Source: a virus. From it: DNA of 29,257 nt. Every line of letters starts with the position of its first letter. The first letter of the stretch is position 1. The stretch spans positions 1 through 29,257 of the IMG/VR virus record IMGVR_UViG_3300010316_000031. One strand, written 5' to 3'. Made by a program: the position numbers and the translations under genes. Below are positions 2,380-13,109 of the stretch, piece by piece. The notes under the pieces are model-generated. The model saw nothing but the letters and a program-made list of their open reading frames with translations. It had not been told where the DNA came from and searched no databases.

Positions 2380-4336
2380 TGTTGATGGGGGCTTGGTGCC
2401 TCATAGTGGTGGGAGGGCTTTGTTATGGGCACCTCAGGAGGGGAGTCAGGTTGATTTTTTAACTTCCCCGATATTTGAGACGTTGCTTTGTGGTCCTCGT
2501 GGCACTGGTAAGACTGACACGTTGTTGATGGATTTTCTTCAGCACACGGGTTCAAAGACGACACCTAATTCTAATGAAGCGCGTGGTTTTGGTGATGCGT
2601 GGTCTGGCATTTTATTTCGTCAGTCTTATCCTGCTCTTGACGATGTAGTTAGTAAGTCTTTGCGTTGGTTCAATCAGTTACCTGTGGGTAACCGTCCTCA
2701 TTTCAATGTGGGGAATTACACATGGAAGTGGCCTACTGGTGAGTCTTTACGTTTTCGTCAGTTAAAGGACCGTAAGGATTACGACAAGTATCATGGTCAT
2801 TGTCTTCCTCCTGGGTCAAGGGTATTGATGTCTGACGGGAGTTGGAAGTTGATTCAGAAGATTCGTCCTTTTGATTGGATACGTCTTCCTTACAGTCCTT
2901 ATCATTCGATTACCCTTCCTGTTCAGTACACGACTGTGGATGAATTTGACGGTTATTTGTTGGAGTATGAGTCTGATGAGACTTATATCCGGTGTACACC
3001 TGATCACGACGTGTGTTACTGGGATCGGGAGTCTGCGAAGATACGCCGCAAGCCTTTTTGCGAGTTTGTGACGGGTGATGAGATTGTATTGGGTGACATG
3101 CGTCGGGTAGTGTTTAATTCTTCGCTTGTTCGTTACGATCATTATGTAGGTGAGGTGTTTTGTTTAGGTATTCCTGTATTTCACAGGTTTATTGCGCAGC
3201 AGGATGGCAGCAAGACGCCTTGGATGTCTGGTAACAGTTATCCTTGGATAGGTTTTGAGGAGCTTACGACGTGGGCTACTCCGGTATTATATCAGAGAAT
3301 GCTTTCTTTGTGTCGTGGTACTGCTCCTGGTATGCCTCGTAAGATTCGGAGTACGACAAACCCGAATGGTTATGGTCATACTTGGGTTAAGAAGAGGTTT
3401 CAGTTGCCTGTAGGCTCTGGTAGGCGGATAGGTAAGATAGTAACTACTGAGGGTGAGAAGCCTAGGGTAGCGATCAATTCCAAGTTGTCGGAGAACAAGG
3501 TTCTTTTATATTCGGACCCTGATTATGTAAAGAATCTTCGTGGTGCGTGTCAGAACGAGAGTGAGCGGGCTGCTTGGATAGATGGTAGTTGGGACATCAC
3601 TTCTGGTGGTATGTTTGATGACATTTGGGACAGTGGTACTCACGTTGTACCGAACATAATTGGTTGTATTCCTCATTCTTGGAGGGTGGATCGGTCTTTT
3701 GACTGGGGTTCTTCTTCTCCGGCGAGTGTAGGTTTTTGGGCAGAGTCTGATGGAACTGAGTTAGTTTATCCTGATGGTACGACAGTTCACACAGTGAGGG
3801 GGGATTTATTCCGAATTGCTGAGTGGTATGTGTGGAATGGTGACGCAGATAAGCCTAAGGGGCTATGTATGTTAGCGGAGGACATTGCTCAGGGTATTGT
3901 ACAGCGCCAGGTTGATTGGGGTATAAATGAGATAATCAAGCCAGGGCCTGCTGACAACTCGATTAACTCTGTAGAGAACGGAAATTGTGTAGCTTCTGAC
4001 ATGCGGGCTAGTGTAATGGTAAATGGCAAGCGTATGCGGGGTGTTTCTTGGACGAAGTCCGATAAGCGGCCAGGAAGTAGGGTAATTGGTTGGCAGCAGA
4101 TGAGAAAATATTTATCAGGCGCTCTTAATAAGTCTAAATTACCAAGAGAGCGCCCCGGTCTTTTCATCTGTGAGCAGTGTGTAGATTTTATACGTACGGT
4201 GCCTCTTCTTCCACGGGATGAGCGGAAGTTAGACGATATCCCAACAGATAACATTGAGGATCACATTGCTGATGAGGCTCGTTACAGGATACGCGGCAGG
4301 GTGCCCATTACCCAAGGAGATGTTATAGGTGGCTGA
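2360..4336 (+). CDS. terL: Terminase large subunit, interrupted by an in-frame mini-intein
   Basis: 658 residues as translated, 513 after removal of the intein at residues 148-292. TerL is the packaging ATPase and headful or site-specific nuclease. Walker A is GPRGTGKT (45-52). Walker B is WIGFEE (296-301), just after the intein. The coupling-type motif TTNPNGYG lies at 332-339. The RNase-H-fold nuclease acids are Asp448 (FDWG), Asp532 (GPADNS) and Asp634/Asp638 in EDHIADEARY (633-642). The start is GTG at 2360; no strong ribosome site is visible. The 513-residue extein total is normal for the family. The Walker B acid is Glu-Glu rather than the usual Asp-Glu. The gene overlaps the portal start by 8 nt. 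Confidence 0.92.
   Translation: MDIEWLDVDGGLVPHSGGRALLWAPQEGSQVDFLTSPIFETLLCGPRGTGKTDTLLMDFLQHTGSKTTPNSNEARGFGDAWSGILFRQSYPALDDVVSKSLRWFNQLPVGNRPHFNVGNYTWKWPTGESLRFRQLKDRKDYDKYHGHCLPPGSRVLMSDGSWKLIQKIRPFDWIRLPYSPYHSITLPVQYTTVDEFDGYLLEYESDETYIRCTPDHDVCYWDRESAKIRRKPFCEFVTGDEIVLGDMRRVVFNSSLVRYDHYVGEVFCLGIPVFHRFIAQQDGSKTPWMSGNSYPWIGFEELTTWATPVLYQRMLSLCRGTAPGMPRKIRSTTNPNGYGHTWVKKRFQLPVGSGRRIGKIVTTEGEKPRVAINSKLSENKVLLYSDPDYVKNLRGACQNESERAAWIDGSWDITSGGMFDDIWDSGTHVVPNIIGCIPHSWRVDRSFDWGSSSPASVGFWAESDGTELVYPDGTTVHTVRGDLFRIAEWYVWNGDADKPKGLCMLAEDIAQGIVQRQVDWGINEIIKPGPADNSINSVENGNCVASDMRASVMVNGKRMRGVSWTKSDKRPGSRVIGWQQMRKYLSGALNKSKLPRERPGLFICEQCVDFIRTVPLLPRDERKLDDIPTDNIEDHIADEARYRIRGRVPITQGDVIGG
2801..3235 (+). 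mobile_element. Mini-intein within TerL (145 residues, no homing endonuclease)
   Basis: Residues 148-292 of the TerL frame interrupt the conserved stretch KDYDKYHGH / SYPWIGFEEL. The insert starts with Cys1 in a block-A-like CLPPGSRV, has a block-B TxxH (TPDH, intein Thr66/His69), a block-F-like EVFCLGIPVFHRFIA (Cys121, His128), and ends SGN with Ser as the +1 extein residue. Excision restores a continuous TerL motif. At 145 residues it is a bare Hint splicing domain with no endonuclease. Oddities: the penultimate residue is Gly instead of His, and block F has Cys where Asp is usual. Cys at F:4 and a hydroxyl residue (Ser143) before the penultimate position recall class 3 inteins, but the Trp expected in block B is not at the right place and Cys1 is present. 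Confidence 0.88.
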
Positions 4337-6672: not shown

Positions 6673-7803
6673 ATGAACGAGGAAAATGCAGCAAAAGATG
6701 AAGCCATTATTGAGGATCTTTCAAAGGGGTTATCTCGTAGAAAGATACTGGCAAAGTACCGTATAGGTAACCATAGGTTCACTAGGCTTTCTCGTGAGCT
6801 TTCCAATAGGCTTCATCTGGCACGTAAGGGCAAAGAGGAGGTAGCGGTACCTACTGGGTACTTTGCGTCTAAGATCTGCACCCATGAAAAAGGGGGGGAG
6901 GTTCAGCAGCGGTGGGTACATACCCGTCCCGATCAGGAGATGCTATTTCAAGCGCAGTTAAATGCGCTGAACGGTATAGCGGAGTCGGGCCTGCCTGTCT
7001 TCGCGGAAGTGGCCAATCCTGTTTTATCCGAGGATGATTTACTTACTTTGTATGTATTATCCGACCTCCATTTGGGTCTTTATGCGTGGGAAAAAGAGTC
7101 TTCAGTGCCGTGGGACCTTAATCTTTCAAAGAAGGCGGCTCTTGACTGCTTGCATCGGATGGCGGATGGTAGCCCAGCTAGTAAAACGGGTGTTCTTTGT
7201 TTGCTTGGTGACTTTATGCATTGGGATGGTTTAGTTCAAGAGACCAATGGTCATCGGCACAACCTAGACGGAAGTTGTAGGTTTGGGGAGCTGATAGAAA
7301 CAGCTTTGGAGAGCATTCTTTGTTCTATCACCAAGCTTTTGGGTACCCACCAAGAGGTAAAGGTTTTGGTGGCAGAGGGTAACCACGATGAGAGGTCTGC
7401 TAACTGGCTACAGGTGTGTCTTCCTTTTATATTCCAAGACAATCCTCGTGTGCAGTTCATCAAAAACGGCCTTCCTTATTATGCAATGGTTCACGGCGAA
7501 CATCTTCTTGGTTTTCATCACGGCCACAAGGTGCGGGACAAGGAGGTGGCTACAGTATTCTCGGCAGATCCACAATTTCGCAAGATGTGGGGTAATTCTC
7601 AACTCTGTTGGGTTCATACAGGCCATCTTCACCACCAGTCAATAATTGAGGTACCGGGGGCGATTGTAGAGAGGCATCCTACTCTTTCTGCTAGGGACTC
7701 CTATGCATCTCGCCGAGGGTACACTAGTTGGAGATGCGCACATGCGATTACTTATCATAAAAAGTATGGTCCAACATCACGCATAACCGTCGTCCCGACC
7801 TAA
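6673..7803 (+). CDS. Calcineurin-like metallophosphoesterase with N-terminal HTH-like region
   Basis: 376 residues. All metal-binding motifs of the calcineurin-like fold are present in order: SDLHLG (Asp131, His133), GDFMHWD (Asp180), GNHDE (Asn237, His238), HHGH (His285) and GHLHH (His318, His320). Residues 9-45 (EDLSKGLSRRKILAKYRIGNHRF in pieces) look like a helix-turn-helix, as seen in a phage group of these enzymes. Substrates of the superfamily range from nucleotides to DNA ends; none can be assigned here. The gene sits in the head cluster between scaffold and major capsid, an odd place for an enzyme. The start has only a weak TTAGGA about 8 nt upstream. Confidence 0.85.
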   Translation: MNEENAAKDEAIIEDLSKGLSRRKILAKYRIGNHRFTRLSRELSNRLHLARKGKEEVAVPTGYFASKICTHEKGGEVQQRWVHTRPDQEMLFQAQLNALNGIAESGLPVFAEVANPVLSEDDLLTLYVLSDLHLGLYAWEKESSVPWDLNLSKKAALDCLHRMADGSPASKTGVLCLLGDFMHWDGLVQETNGHRHNLDGSCRFGELIETALESILCSITKLLGTHQEVKVLVAEGNHDERSANWLQVCLPFIFQDNPRVQFIKNGLPYYAMVHGEHLLGFHHGHKVRDKEVATVFSADPQFRKMWGNSQLCWVHTGHLHHQSIIEVPGAIVERHPTLSARDSYASRRGYTSWRCAHAITYHKKYGPTSRITVVPT

Positions 7804-7909: not shown

Positions 7910-8983
7910 ATGGCTGATACAGCAGTACGCCTTCAAGATCTCCAAGTATACGACGGTTTTACCGACTACGTCGTTAAGGAGTCAATGGTCACTGACGCTC
8001 TCGTAACATCGGGCGCAGTGGTTGAGAACACTATTCTTTCTAGTAAGATTGCAGAGGGAGGCAAGATGACATCTATGCCTTTCTTCAAGGATCTTGCTGA
8101 CGATGCCGACAACGTTTCGGATGACAATCCTGCCAACCTTGCTTTTTCAAAGAAGATTGAAGCGGCTGACGACACGGCAGTATTTCAGCGCCGTAACCAG
8201 AACTGGTCAGAAATGGACCTCGCCAACGAGCTGATCACTGGCGATCCTCTCGGTGCGATTGCTACTTTGACCTCCGGCTACTGGCGTGGTCGCCGTCATG
8301 CTGCATTGAAGGCGCTCCTTAAAGGTGTCTTCGCGGCAAATGACAAGTCGGCTTCCCCAGGTGGGGGGGATGGAACAGCAGGCTCTGGTGACCTGACCTT
8401 TGTGTCTGGTGGTGCTACTTACACCGATGGCGTTACTGATTTAAACCACAACACACTTGCTGACACGCTTGGCACGCTTGGGGTTTATCAGGATTTGGAG
8501 GGCGGAATCCTTCTTGTCCATCCAAACATCTACACCAGTATGCGCAAGGACAACCTGATCGACTTCATCAAGCCTTCGGATCAGCTACAGCCGATCCCAT
8601 TTTTTGGCAACCTTCGGGTTGTACAGGAGGCTTCGATGCCTACTGGGGAACTCTTGGGTAACGTAGGCCGAGTAGACTACGAATCCTGGATTCTCCCCGC
8701 AGGTTCGATTCAGGTCGGCTTTGGTAGTGCGAAGGTTCCTCAAGAGATCAGCCGAATCCCAGACGCGGGCAACGGCGGCGGACAGACTAAGCTGTTCCAG
8801 CGTGTGGTGTACTCGATGCATCTCCCAGGTTACAGTTGGAATGTTACCCACGCTAATACCTCTGCGGGTGGCCCTAGCAACGCGGCAAGCGTTAACCAAC
8901 TGGCCCATGAGGACAGTTGGTTGCGGGTTTTCCCAGAGCGGGCGCAGGTACCAGTGGCTCGTCTGATCTCTACCGAAGCGTAA
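7910..8983 (+). CDS. Major capsid protein
   Basis: 357 residues. The pattern LANELITGDPLGAIATLTSGYWRGRRHAALKALLKGVFAAN (in pieces, about 103-144), LIDFIKPSDQLQPIPFFGNLRVVQE and the overall length match HK97-fold coat proteins of siphoviruses. It polymerises into the icosahedral head around the scaffold. A loop rich in Gly and Ser near 145-160 is likely a surface or E-loop-like insertion. It starts with ATG, with GAGGA (7896-7900) upstream, and is followed 16 nt later by a strong intrinsic terminator, as expected for the most abundant virion protein. Confidence 0.88.
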   Translation: MADTAVRLQDLQVYDGFTDYVVKESMVTDALVTSGAVVENTILSSKIAEGGKMTSMPFFKDLADDADNVSDDNPANLAFSKKIEAADDTAVFQRRNQNWSEMDLANELITGDPLGAIATLTSGYWRGRRHAALKALLKGVFAANDKSASPGGGDGTAGSGDLTFVSGGATYTDGVTDLNHNTLADTLGTLGVYQDLEGGILLVHPNIYTSMRKDNLIDFIKPSDQLQPIPFFGNLRVVQEASMPTGELLGNVGRVDYESWILPAGSIQVGFGSAKVPQEISRIPDAGNGGGQTKLFQRVVYSMHLPGYSWNVTHANTSAGGPSNAASVNQLAHEDSWLRVFPERAQVPVARLISTEA

Positions 8984-8999
8984 GTCAAGGCGGTCACTT

Positions 9000-9036
9000 A
9001 GGCCCCTCTTCCTAGGGGGAGGGGCCTTTTGTTTTT
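9000..9036 (+). terminator. Rho-independent terminator after the capsid gene
   Basis: GGCCCCTC (9001-9008) pairs perfectly with GAGGGGCC (9019-9026), extended inward by wobble and G-C pairs, and is followed directly by TTTTGTTTTT (9027-9036). The stem and T-tract are textbook. It probably makes a capsid-rich transcript end here with partial read-through into the neck genes, since no obvious promoter lies between 9037 and 9058. Confidence 0.88.
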
Positions 9037-9058
9037 CTAATACAGGAGAGATACCACA

Positions 9059-9397
9059 ATGCCTCGTAAGCGACCAGAAAGTGAAGTAACTACACCAGAC
9101 AAGGTGGTGCCTCGTTCTCAGGTACTACGTGAACAGATCGCTAGTCTTCTCAAGGACCTAGGCGTTCAGCGAGCCAAGCAAGAGGAAGCAGAAACTATCT
9201 GTTCTGGGATCAAGAATGCCCTTTCCCCTTTGCAGGAAGAACTTGCAGATCTCTCAAAGATCTCCCCACGAGATCTTCGTCTTAGTCACGAGAAGATTTC
9301 TCGCGAAAAGAACGCAAATCGTGCCTTGTATCGCCATATTTTTCGGGAATCCCTTCGTGGTTTTACTCCAGTAGTGTCCCAAAAGGGTGCGGAGTAA
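9059..9397 (+). CDS. Small coiled-coil protein of unknown function
   Basis: 112 residues, basic at the N-terminus (MPRKRPE), with a heptad-like helical stretch at about 20-70 (QIASLLKDLGVQRAKQEEAE) and an Arg/Lys-rich second helix (about 72-100). It has no membrane segment and no enzyme motif. AGGAG at 9044-9048 supports the ATG at 9059. The position between major capsid and head-tail adaptor suggests a virion or assembly accessory, but I do not recognise a family. Confidence 0.65.
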   Translation: MPRKRPESEVTTPDKVVPRSQVLREQIASLLKDLGVQRAKQEEAETICSGIKNALSPLQEELADLSKISPRDLRLSHEKISREKNANRALYRHIFRESLRGFTPVVSQKGAE

Positions 9398-9403
9398 TCC
9401 ACT

Positions 9404-9910
9404 ATGTCTTTCCTTCTGGAGGACGGCACCGGCCTATCCAATAGCAACAGCTATGGGACAGTTGCCGGGTTCAGGGCATACCACCAAGACAGAGGTGCTG
9501 CGGGGGTAGATGAGTCTACCCCAACGGACGAAATTGTCCAGCATCTCCTGATCAAGGCCACCCAGTATATCGATCGGCGTTTTGGTACGCGGATGAAGGG
9601 ATTACCTTTGACTTCAAGCCAAGCTCTTGGGTTTCCTCGTCAGTATGCCTACGACAAACTAGGCGTCATGCTGAGTTCAGTGCCTACTGCTTTGGTGAAT
9701 GCTACTTATGAGTATGCTCTCCGCAGCAATGCGGATACGCTGTGGCCGGACCCAGCTCATAGTACCTTTGGTAAAGTAATAGAGGAGATTGTGGGGCCAA
9801 TCGAGGTCAAGTACTCCGACAAGACAGAATCAAAAGTTCGCGACTACCCAGAGGTTGACAACCTGCTTGAGGGCCTCCTGCGCCCATCGGGGCTGGTCCG
9901 TGGGTTATGA
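9404..9910 (+). CDS. Head-tail adaptor (DnaT-like family)
   Basis: 168 residues. The opening MSFLLEDGTGLSNSNSYGTVAGFRAYHQDRG (in pieces), the block ATQYIDRRFGTRMKGLPLT and QALGFPRQ..YD match the phage family often labelled 'putative DnaT-like ssDNA-binding protein', whose place right after the capsid gene and whose helical fold point to a head-tail connector. The connector binds below the portal. The DnaT name in databases is historical and I do not propose DNA binding. It starts with ATG 6 nt after the previous stop and ends inside the next gene. Confidence 0.75.
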   Translation: MSFLLEDGTGLSNSNSYGTVAGFRAYHQDRGAAGVDESTPTDEIVQHLLIKATQYIDRRFGTRMKGLPLTSSQALGFPRQYAYDKLGVMLSSVPTALVNATYEYALRSNADTLWPDPAHSTFGKVIEEIVGPIEVKYSDKTESKVRDYPEVDNLLEGLLRPSGLVRGL

Positions 9911-10286
9911 TTACACAAAAGTTGCGGATGCGAGCACTCGTCTTATCACTAGGTTTGGTCGTGACGCTACGTTTCGCTATTATTCGACCACTACGGAAAG
10001 CGGCCAAGAGTGGTTGGGCAATAATTCGCGCACGGAGGCAGCTTCCACGGTCTTAAAGGTACTGGAGTCCGACCCAAACTCTGACAAGTTAGTCAAGGAG
10101 TTGGTCGAGTCTGGTGGATTTGTTTCGGCGAAGAGTGTCCTTTTATGCGTAGTCCCTTCTGACGGATATGACATTGTTAAGACCACAGAAATAGTGGACA
10201 ATGGCAAGACTTATGGAGTAGTTGCTATTATGCCGCTTAGTCCTGGGGATACACCTCTTTTATATGCAGTTGTGGTGTCCGAATGA
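9900..10286 (+). CDS. Neck / head-closure protein
   Basis: 128 residues from a GTG at 9900, overlapping the adaptor by 11 nt. The N-terminus (YTKVADASTRLITRFGRDATFRYY) fits the recurrent 'RLI.RFGR..T.R' opening of small phage neck or stopper proteins. The rest is predicted beta-rich and ends with GKTYGVVAIMPLSPGDTPLLYAVVVSE, which resembles closing strands of such proteins. The frame stays open upstream to 9789, but that stretch overlaps the conserved adaptor, so the internal GTG is preferred. The role is inferred from order: adaptor, stopper, tail terminator. Confidence 0.6.
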   Translation: MGYDYTKVADASTRLITRFGRDATFRYYSTTTESGQEWLGNNSRTEAASTVLKVLESDPNSDKLVKELVESGGFVSAKSVLLCVVPSDGYDIVKTTEIVDNGKTYGVVAIMPLSPGDTPLLYAVVVSE

Positions 10287-11377
10287 TTGCCTCGGCAGCG
10301 CGAAACTTAGTATTTAGCGTCTTCCGCAAGGCATGGGTAGAAGAGGCCCTCTTGCCCAGCCAGAACGTGAGGTATCCTAACCTGCGGAAGGATAATTTCC
10401 CTGTAACTGGTGGGGCTTCCGCTGAGGTATTCCTTACCCACACAGACTCTGAGCAGAGTACGCTTCCTGGTGGTAACTCTGGTAAGATTAAGTACAAAAC
10501 TACTGCTCTGTTTGAGGCGGTAATCTATCTCGACAGGGAAGAAGGAAACGACGATGTATATTCCATTGGCGAAAAGATCATAAAGGCTTTCCGTAACTCT
10601 AGTACAAATGGCGTATGGTTTCGTAACTCCTTTATTAAGGAGCTGGACCCAGATGGGAACTTTAACCGCGTAAGTTTTCTTTCTTTCTGTGATTATTATC
10701 ATGTTGATCAGCCAGCGGAAGTCCCTCCTGTTAATAGTTACCCCAATGACCAGTACAGTGTATTCCTGCCATTTGATGACGTTGACGAAAACCTAGAGCA
10801 ATACAGTTGGTATGGCGAAACCTACGTAGGGACAGGCAAACATGACGGGGCTTTTGTATTTGACCATGAGGCAGTTCTATCAGTGCCTGTGCCAACCATT
10901 GACCCTAACGCATACAGTGTGGTTTTCTGGATAAACGCCACGGGTGTGAGATTCATTGGTGAGCTTGACGCCAAGGTAATCTGGAGGGGTGACATCAATA
11001 ATCTTTCAGACCCTGTCCCGCATTATATCTTCAATACCAGCAAAGATTTTTACTCAGGGGATGTTTGTTACCACGACAGCTCTTTTCCTTTGCATAGTGA
11101 GGTAACTAGTGATTTGCTTGATGAAACTTGGCGTCACGTTGCTATCACCTATGACGGCGCAAGGAAATCTTTTTATCTAGATGGGGTGTTGAGACACACA
11201 GCAGTTGCGTCTCCTGCTCCTGTGGCAAATGACACGTTGAACTTTGGCGGCGTCCCTGGGTACTACTACAAGAACGGGTCTCTTGATGACGTGGGTTATT
11301 TTTCCCGAACCGCACTTACACAAGAACAGATTTACGAAATCTATAGCAGCCCCGGTCCTTTGGGTACACCCCCCTAA
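10283..11377 (+). CDS. Tail terminator-like domain fused to a LamG-like lectin domain
   Basis: 364 residues. Residues 1-141 resemble tail-terminator/completion proteins (DUF4128-like): an N-terminal helix with FRKAWVEEALLP, LFEAVIYLDREEG, a helix IGEKIIKAFRN, and a final strand region NRVSFLSFCDYYHVD. A short Pro-rich linker (144-153) leads to a second domain at 156-356 with concanavalin/LamG signatures: a paired opening FLPFDDVDEN and GAFVFDHEAVLSVP, then ETWRHVAITYDGARKSFYLDG (about 281-301) and SLDDVGYFSRTALTQEQI (333-350). A terminator ring carrying six lectin-like domains at the neck would be a decoration that binds sugars or debris; this is inference. Start ATG overlaps the upstream stop as ATGA. 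Confidence 0.75.
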   Translation: MIASAARNLVFSVFRKAWVEEALLPSQNVRYPNLRKDNFPVTGGASAEVFLTHTDSEQSTLPGGNSGKIKYKTTALFEAVIYLDREEGNDDVYSIGEKIIKAFRNSSTNGVWFRNSFIKELDPDGNFNRVSFLSFCDYYHVDQPAEVPPVNSYPNDQYSVFLPFDDVDENLEQYSWYGETYVGTGKHDGAFVFDHEAVLSVPVPTIDPNAYSVVFWINATGVRFIGELDAKVIWRGDINNLSDPVPHYIFNTSKDFYSGDVCYHDSSFPLHSEVTSDLLDETWRHVAITYDGARKSFYLDGVLRHTAVASPAPVANDTLNFGGVPGYYYKNGSLDDVGYFSRTALTQEQIYEIYSSPGPLGTPP

Positions 11378-11392
11378 AACATAATTTTTATA

Positions 11393-11412
11393 GTAACTTA
11401 TTGAGTAGTTAC
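11393..11412. other. Stem-loop in the gap before the tail-tube gene
   Basis: GTAACT (11393-11398) and AGTTAC (11407-11412) form a 6-bp stem with an 8-nt loop. The next bases are GTACAAAAAGGG, with no T-run, so an intrinsic terminator is unlikely. Function unknown. Confidence 0.35.
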
Positions 11413-11453
11413 GTACAAAAAGGGTGCAGTACCTGTAGTTAGGGTGCCTGCTG

Positions 11454-11490
11454 TTCAATACACACCGAATGATTAGTCTATATTAGACTA
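11454..11490 (+). promoter_or_regulatory. Palindrome and possible promoter before the tail-tube gene
   Basis: TAGTCTA-TAT-TAGACTA (11474-11490) is a perfect 7-bp inverted repeat with a 3-nt centre. It contains TATATT, a fair -10 match, and TTCAAT at 11454-11459 could be a weak -35 with a long 19-nt spacer. It lies in the 142-nt gap between neck and tail genes, the largest gap after the capsid gene. It may be a promoter/operator for the tail operon; spacing is poor, so confidence is low. Confidence 0.3.
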
Positions 11491-11519
11491 CCCTGATCTA
11501 AAAATAGGAGTACTTTATA

Positions 11520-13109
11520 ATGTCAGTAACAGAATCTCATATCCTGAGTAACCAGACAGGGTTGACTGTCGCGGAAGAGTTGTCGCCTAAAGTTTTGCCA
11601 TTAAATCCTGTTTGGCGGGAGCTGGAACCCAACACGGAAGACATGGGCGCTAGTTATAGCCAAGTTGCACGAAGCCCTATCAATAGCAGCAGGCAGCGTC
11701 GTAAGGGGGCAGTTACTGACCTTGACTCGCAGGCTTCCCTTCAAGTGGATCTTACCACGGACCCTGTAGTACGTGACCTGCTTCAGGGCTATGTCTTCGC
11801 AGACATCGAGAATAAAGGCGTCAGCGAGAATGTACTTGGCAGCACGCAACGTCAGCACGCTATTGACTCTAGCACGGATGTGGTGACAGCCTCCGGCGAC
11901 ACGCCCTCCTTATCTGATGACTTCTCGCAAGGTGACCTAGTCTTAGTATCTGGGTCTTTTTCGGAAGCAAACAACGGCCTGTTTAAGGTTGATAGTGGGG
12001 CCACCGCAACCACATTGAGCCTTATCGCTGCGGATGGGACTGACGGATCAGTCAATACCGTGGACGAGTTGGCCACTTCGGAGATTACCCTAGTAAAGGT
12101 AGGGGCACAGGGCGGGTCTGGGGCCATTGAGGTATCTGCGACGGGTGGCTTCCCCCAGTTGACTAGCCTTTCCTTTGACTTTACCACTCTGGGTCTTGTA
12201 CCTGGTGAGTGGATTTATGTTGGCGGCGACGAGCTAAGTACTAAGTTTGCTACTGCCGCAAACAACGGATTTGCGCGGGTCCGCTCGGTCACATCAAACG
12301 TAATCACGGTGGACAAGACATCGGATACTTGGGTGACTGACAACGGCGCAACTAAGCTAATTAGCCTATTCATCGGTCGGCGTCTGCGTAATCGCACAGG
12401 TTCTGCAATCAAGCGCCGCTCCTATCAGTTTGAGCGTAGCCTAGGAGCGCCCAATAGCGCGTCCCCCGGCCAGGTCCAGTATGAATATGTTACGGGCGCG
12501 GCACCTTCCATCGCCAAGATTGACCTTAGCACTGCTGACAAGGTCATGGTTGATCTTGAGTACATCGGCCTTGGGTACGAGACTCTAGATGCGGCCACCG
12601 GCAAAAAGAGTGGTACCCGCCCTACATTGGAAAGCGGGGATGCTTACAACGCTTCTAACCATGTCAAGCGAACATCCTTGCGTCTAGCGAGTGGTCAAAA
12701 CCCCAACAACACGGATGAGTTCACTTACGCTGCGGACCTAGAGTTCTCCATCAATAACAACGTCAGCCCCCTGAAGGCCATTGGCACGCTTGGTGGGTTT
12801 GATACAAACGCCGGGGAGCTTACAGTTGATGCCTCGTTGACCGCATTCTTTGCCGACATTGTGGTTATGAGTCGTATTGCAAATAACGACGACATGACCC
12901 TTGATACGATTTTGGTCCAAGAAAACAAGGGGGTAGCGATTGATCTACCTTTGGTGACACTAGGCTCCGACAACCCGCAAATCTCGGCTAACGAGGCTGT
13001 AACTTTGCCTCTGACCATTACTGCGGTATCTGGGAACGCTATCTCTAGTACCTTGGATCACACGATCATGTTCAATTTCTTCGATTACCTACCAACAGCA
13101 GCAGGCTAA
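11520..13109 (+). CDS. Major tail tube protein (large variant)
   Basis: 529 residues. The block LRNRTGSAIKRRSYQFERSLGAP (in pieces, near residue 290-312) and KVMVDLEYIG, LEFSINNNVSPLKAIGTLGGFD and the closing DHTIMFNFFDYLP match tail tube proteins of siphoviruses. It stacks as rings around the tape measure. It is clearly larger than the roughly 200-350 residues of many tube proteins: residues about 110-290 carry a Gly/Ser/Thr-rich segment with PSLSDDFSQGDLVLVSG and FATAANNGFARVRSVTSNVITVDK, which looks like inserted beta-sandwich modules displayed on the tail. AGGAG at 11506-11510 supports the start. Confidence 0.82.
   Translation: MSVTESHILSNQTGLTVAEELSPKVLPLNPVWRELEPNTEDMGASYSQVARSPINSSRQRRKGAVTDLDSQASLQVDLTTDPVVRDLLQGYVFADIENKGVSENVLGSTQRQHAIDSSTDVVTASGDTPSLSDDFSQGDLVLVSGSFSEANNGLFKVDSGATATTLSLIAADGTDGSVNTVDELATSEITLVKVGAQGGSGAIEVSATGGFPQLTSLSFDFTTLGLVPGEWIYVGGDELSTKFATAANNGFARVRSVTSNVITVDKTSDTWVTDNGATKLISLFIGRRLRNRTGSAIKRRSYQFERSLGAPNSASPGQVQYEYVTGAAPSIAKIDLSTADKVMVDLEYIGLGYETLDAATGKKSGTRPTLESGDAYNASNHVKRTSLRLASGQNPNNTDEFTYAADLEFSINNNVSPLKAIGTLGGFDTNAGELTVDASLTAFFADIVVMSRIANNDDMTLDTILVQENKGVAIDLPLVTLGSDNPQISANEAVTLPLTITAVSGNAISSTLDHTIMFNFFDYLPTAAG

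Follow-up and report, generated by a model that had tools for sequence, protein, structure and literature searches.

A mini-intein, probably of class 1, in the terminase large subunit gene of the viral contig IMGVR_UViG_3300010316_000031

The terminase gene and its insert

The window, that is, the whole stretch of 29,257 nucleotides that was analysed (positions 1 to 29,257 of IMGVR_UViG_3300010316_000031), carries a terminase large subunit (TerL) gene interrupted by an in-frame insert, and the features of both are collected in Table 1. The product was assigned as a terminase large subunit in PHROGs (phrog_2, E 6e-23; phrog_979, E 2e-15), TerL matches were obtained by tblastn in 598 phage records, and the reading frame is open over all 658 residues, the insert included. 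The insert begins CLPPGSRVLMSDGSW, with Cys as its first residue, and ends TPWMSGN followed by Ser; when it is taken out, KYHGH is joined to SYPWIGFEEL and 513 residues are left. Because the insert sits between Walker A and Walker B, splicing should be required for an active TerL ATPase. A recent arrival of the insert was also considered, and no mark of it was seen in the base composition, the GC content being 45.5% for the insert versus 46.5 and 47.0% for the exteins.

Just upstream of TerL, positions 1245-1847 hold a gene weakly similar to permuted papain-like YaeF/YiiX enzymes. Positions 6673-7803 hold a metallophosphoesterase-like gene of 376 aa that matches phrog_704 (DNA repair exonuclease) at E 4e-87; it has the portal region on one side and the major head protein gene on the other. 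Low-complexity CG/CA repeats occupy positions 1-230, and a 37-bp unit is present in 2.7 exact copies at 228-327; these repeats (1-327) stand at the extreme contig end and may be an artefact of the assembly edge.

Table 1. Coordinates of TerL, its exteins and the residues of the intein in the window
Feature	Position	Strand	Basis
TerL precursor gene, GTG start, 658 aa	2360..4336	+	phrog_2 and phrog_979 matches; tblastn
N-extein, 147 aa	2360..2800	+	extein placement on homologues
Walker A GPRGTGKT, inside N-extein	2492-2515	+	read from sequence
Mini-intein, 145 aa, TerL residues 148-292	2801..3235	+	empty sites, profile match, HINT fold
Cys1, presumed first nucleophile, block A	2801..2803	+	invariant, 18 rows
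Block B TxxH, Thr66-Pro-Asp-His69 (TPDH, insert residues 66-69)	2996..3007	+	T66 and H69 invariant, 18 rows
Cys121, block F position 4 (F:4)	3161..3163	+	Cys in 40/42 relatives
His128, block F His	3182..3184	+	His aligned in many, not all, relatives
Block G end, Ser143-Gly144-Asn145	3227..3235	+	invariant, 18 rows
C-extein, 366 aa, first residue Ser+1	3236..4333	+	homologues 42-57% identical
Walker B region WIGFEE, inside C-extein	3245-3262	+	C-extein

Empty and occupied sites, profile and fold

Homologous viral loci (80 in total) were retrieved by using the C-extein, and both exteins were then placed on each. Both flanks were readable in 78 homologues; in 70 of these the two exteins adjoin directly, the gap being 0 nt, and five others (L025, L028, L034, L038 and L039) carry an in-frame insert of 1026-1035 nt at exactly the junction of the window; the boundaries of the insert are therefore exact. 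The remaining three comprise two with an intein elsewhere in TerL (L061 and L079) and one (L071) with an alignment offset of 105 nt. Thus the rejoining and the insert limits proposed in an earlier note on this DNA hold. The window insert is in frame, has precise junctions and is without counterpart in most homologues, as an intein would be.

Each of the five inserts at the window junction is a full-length intein of 342-345 aa; they have a LAGLIDADG-type middle and the layout C...TPNH...VYC...SGN/S (the slash marks the splice junction). They share with the window intein the insertion point, Cys1, the block-B TxxH (TPNH in the five, TPDH in the window), VYC in block F and SGN before Ser, and differ from it in length and in retaining the endonuclease; identity to the window intein is approximately 25-28% over the N part, rising to 42-44% over the C part. 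Further same-site inteins were sought by a DNA pattern scan for GN/SY..W.G at the junction, and two were found, one of 314 aa (L146) and a mini-intein of 176 aa in IMGVR_UViG_3300027664_000030 (L150). The latter, the best blastp match to the window insert (E 9e-10, searched against a small local database), likewise has no endonuclease and has the F:4 Cys and SGN before Ser; it differs in length and is 28% identical. The same TerL gene (8699-11965 of that record) also bears a P-loop intein of 332 aa (GNGK/RISDD...VVTHN/SD) with the class 3 signature, that is, no Cys1, H-R-W, Cys at F:4 and Thr at G:5, and the apparent start of a third intein after EDH in the nuclease part. The TerL intein of Gordonia phage GMA6 (KR063280) resembles the window intein in Cys1, the F:4 Cys and SGN before Ser; its site is about two residues upstream, and it is not a mini-intein (336 aa).

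With the insert alone as the query, nothing significant was obtained from Pfam, PHROGs or the PDB sequences, tblastn against phages gave a single match (E 0.9), no relative was found in the first viral scan, and the N-terminal intein model TIGR01445 of NCBIfam was matched below threshold (13.2 versus a cut-off of 24.5 bits). Its homology surfaced only via the same-site inteins of homologous TerLs. An intein profile built from 19 relatives, with the window insert left out, matched it at E 1.5e-17, the best of 1000 shuffles reaching 0.22. Across the whole window, no further intein-like stretches were found by searches that included this profile.

The AlphaFold model of the insert, for which an 18-row alignment was the input, was confident (pLDDT 94.6, pTM 0.86), and the PDB matches listed were inteins and their kin, BIL domains and Hedgehog, the Z score reaching 18.5 across 139 residues. 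The top VIA-align row was a class 3 split intein; the modelled HINT fold does not tell class 1 from class 3. Blocks A, B, F and G and the HINT fold identify the insert as an intein, and the 145 residues contain no homing endonuclease domain, full-length relatives holding approximately 190-200 more residues at a place where the window intein has none. The insert is a mini-intein, real and far beyond chance, and the empty sites, the profile and the HINT fold bear out the earlier claim of a 145-residue mini-intein in TerL just before Walker B. In the splicing-domain tree, six same-site inteins (that of the window and the five LAGLIDADG ones) are set apart from the rest by a branch supported at 99/98, the window intein being on a very long branch of its own (3.37 changes per column). 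Judged from these sequences, the simplest history is most likely a single intein lineage at the TerL site, of which the window copy lost the endonuclease.

Splicing motifs and class of the intein

The TxxH and block-F-like motifs recognised earlier are in place, and Cys1, T66, H69, S143, G144 and N145 are all invariant in the 18-row alignment. The absence of the block-B Trp is likewise as first described: Val71 occupies B:12, two residues past the block-B His (position as in PMC5222942). His128 may aid the cyclisation of Asn, as its alignment with the block-F His of other inteins suggests.

The earlier note had regarded the C-terminus as non-canonical and as partly resembling class 3. For this comparison, 42 distinct relatives were collected by scans with the same-site intein alignment and from named phages, their hosts being terminases, DNA methylases, a thymidylate synthase, a portal protein and others. 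Cys is found at F:4 in 40 of them and Asp in two, and penultimate Gly in 41, counts which take in near relatives and so describe a family rather than independent events. The single exception to the penultimate Gly (L111) is an intein ending SSN, then Cys, whose extraction is off by one. Since nearly all relatives have both the F:4 Cys and the penultimate Gly, these traits are the norm of the family, and the ending of the window intein is an ordinary one within a large group of phage inteins that has been described before. Class 1 mycobacteriophage inteins without penultimate His have been described (Kelley 2016, PMC5050341), and many TerL inteins are reported in the same study, all within the ATPase domain and some at Walker B (PMC5050341). 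In one of the class 1 inteins, that of RDF, a penultimate Gly goes with fast splicing, and replacing this Gly by His slows the reaction (PMC5050341). The Bethlehem RDF-type inteins of that class share with the window intein the N-terminal Cys nucleophile and the penultimate Gly, but differ, as compared by description, in host protein and in the presence of an endonuclease (PMC5050341).

Two relatives have Trp at B:12. One is the portal-gene intein of Caudovirales GX15bay (L087, MK557849), in which Cys1, Trp B:12, Cys F:4 and Thr G:5 occur together as a mixture of class 1 and class 3 motifs; the other is a second-site TerL intein at 3001-3984 of the contig shared with L061 (L109), with Cys1, Trp B:12, Cys F:4 and Ser G:5.

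Class 3 inteins have Trp at B:12, Cys at F:4 and Thr at G:5, and residue 1 is dispensable in them (PMC5222942; PMC7664689). Msm DnaB-1 and MchDnaB1, as members of this class, share with the window intein the HINT fold, the F:4 Cys and Ser+1, but have Trp at B:12 and Thr at G:5, both missing from the window intein (PMC5222942, PMC7664689). A class 3-like or mixed mechanism, in which the first attack would be made by Cys121 and Cys1 would be dispensable, is suggested by the Cys kept at F:4 throughout nearly all of the family and by the coexistence of Cys1 with Trp B:12, in one case also with Thr G:5, in the two relatives above. It is nevertheless highly improbable: Val71 and Ser143 stand at B:12 and G:5, replacement of Trp B:12 by Ala stopped the splicing of three class 3 inteins (PMC5222942), Cys1 is invariant across the 18 rows, and the two relatives with Asp at F:4 have Cys1, or a Cys adjoining the extracted start. 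Assignment to class 3 was rejected on the missing Trp and Thr; the resemblance drawn from the C-terminus does not stand, the F:4 Cys and the Gly-Asn ending being common in the family.

Cys at residue 1 agrees with class 1, and very probably the insert is a class 1 TerL mini-intein, kin to the same-site LAGLIDADG inteins and most likely derived by endonuclease loss, as its residues and relatives indicate. The likeliest mechanism would be class 1 splicing via Cys1, Ser+1 and Asn145. Cys1 would attack the His-Cys peptide bond with the aid of Thr66 and His69, the acyl group would then pass to Ser+1, Asn145 would cyclise, perhaps with His128 standing in for the penultimate His, and an O-N shift would yield the TerL of 513 aa.

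Expected activity and place in the family

A decayed intein, from which the protein would remain a 658-aa precursor or be cleaved, could be read from the very long branch and the lost endonuclease, yet it is highly improbable, as the frame is open, every catalytic residue is kept, the HINT model is confident, and the insert breaks the ATPase domain of a gene needed by the phage, the extein motifs of which are intact. Nothing was found in favour of a role of splicing in the timing of DNA packaging, the least probable of the alternatives: conditional splicing would fit an insert in the ATPase domain, and such regulation has been proposed for phage inteins (PMC5050341), but no switch is evident in the sequence, the majority of homologous TerLs are without any insert at the site, and the RDF intein with its penultimate Gly was completely spliced at time zero, whereas its G316H mutant was about half spliced only after more than 5 h (PMC5050341).

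The mini-intein of the window is an ordinary addition to an already known kind of intein. With it, the large phage intein family having the F:4 Cys and the penultimate Gly gains a compact natural member of 145 aa, and a single TerL site is seen in the empty, full-length and mini states. If both cysteines do act, this family would help to explain the origin of class 3 inteins.
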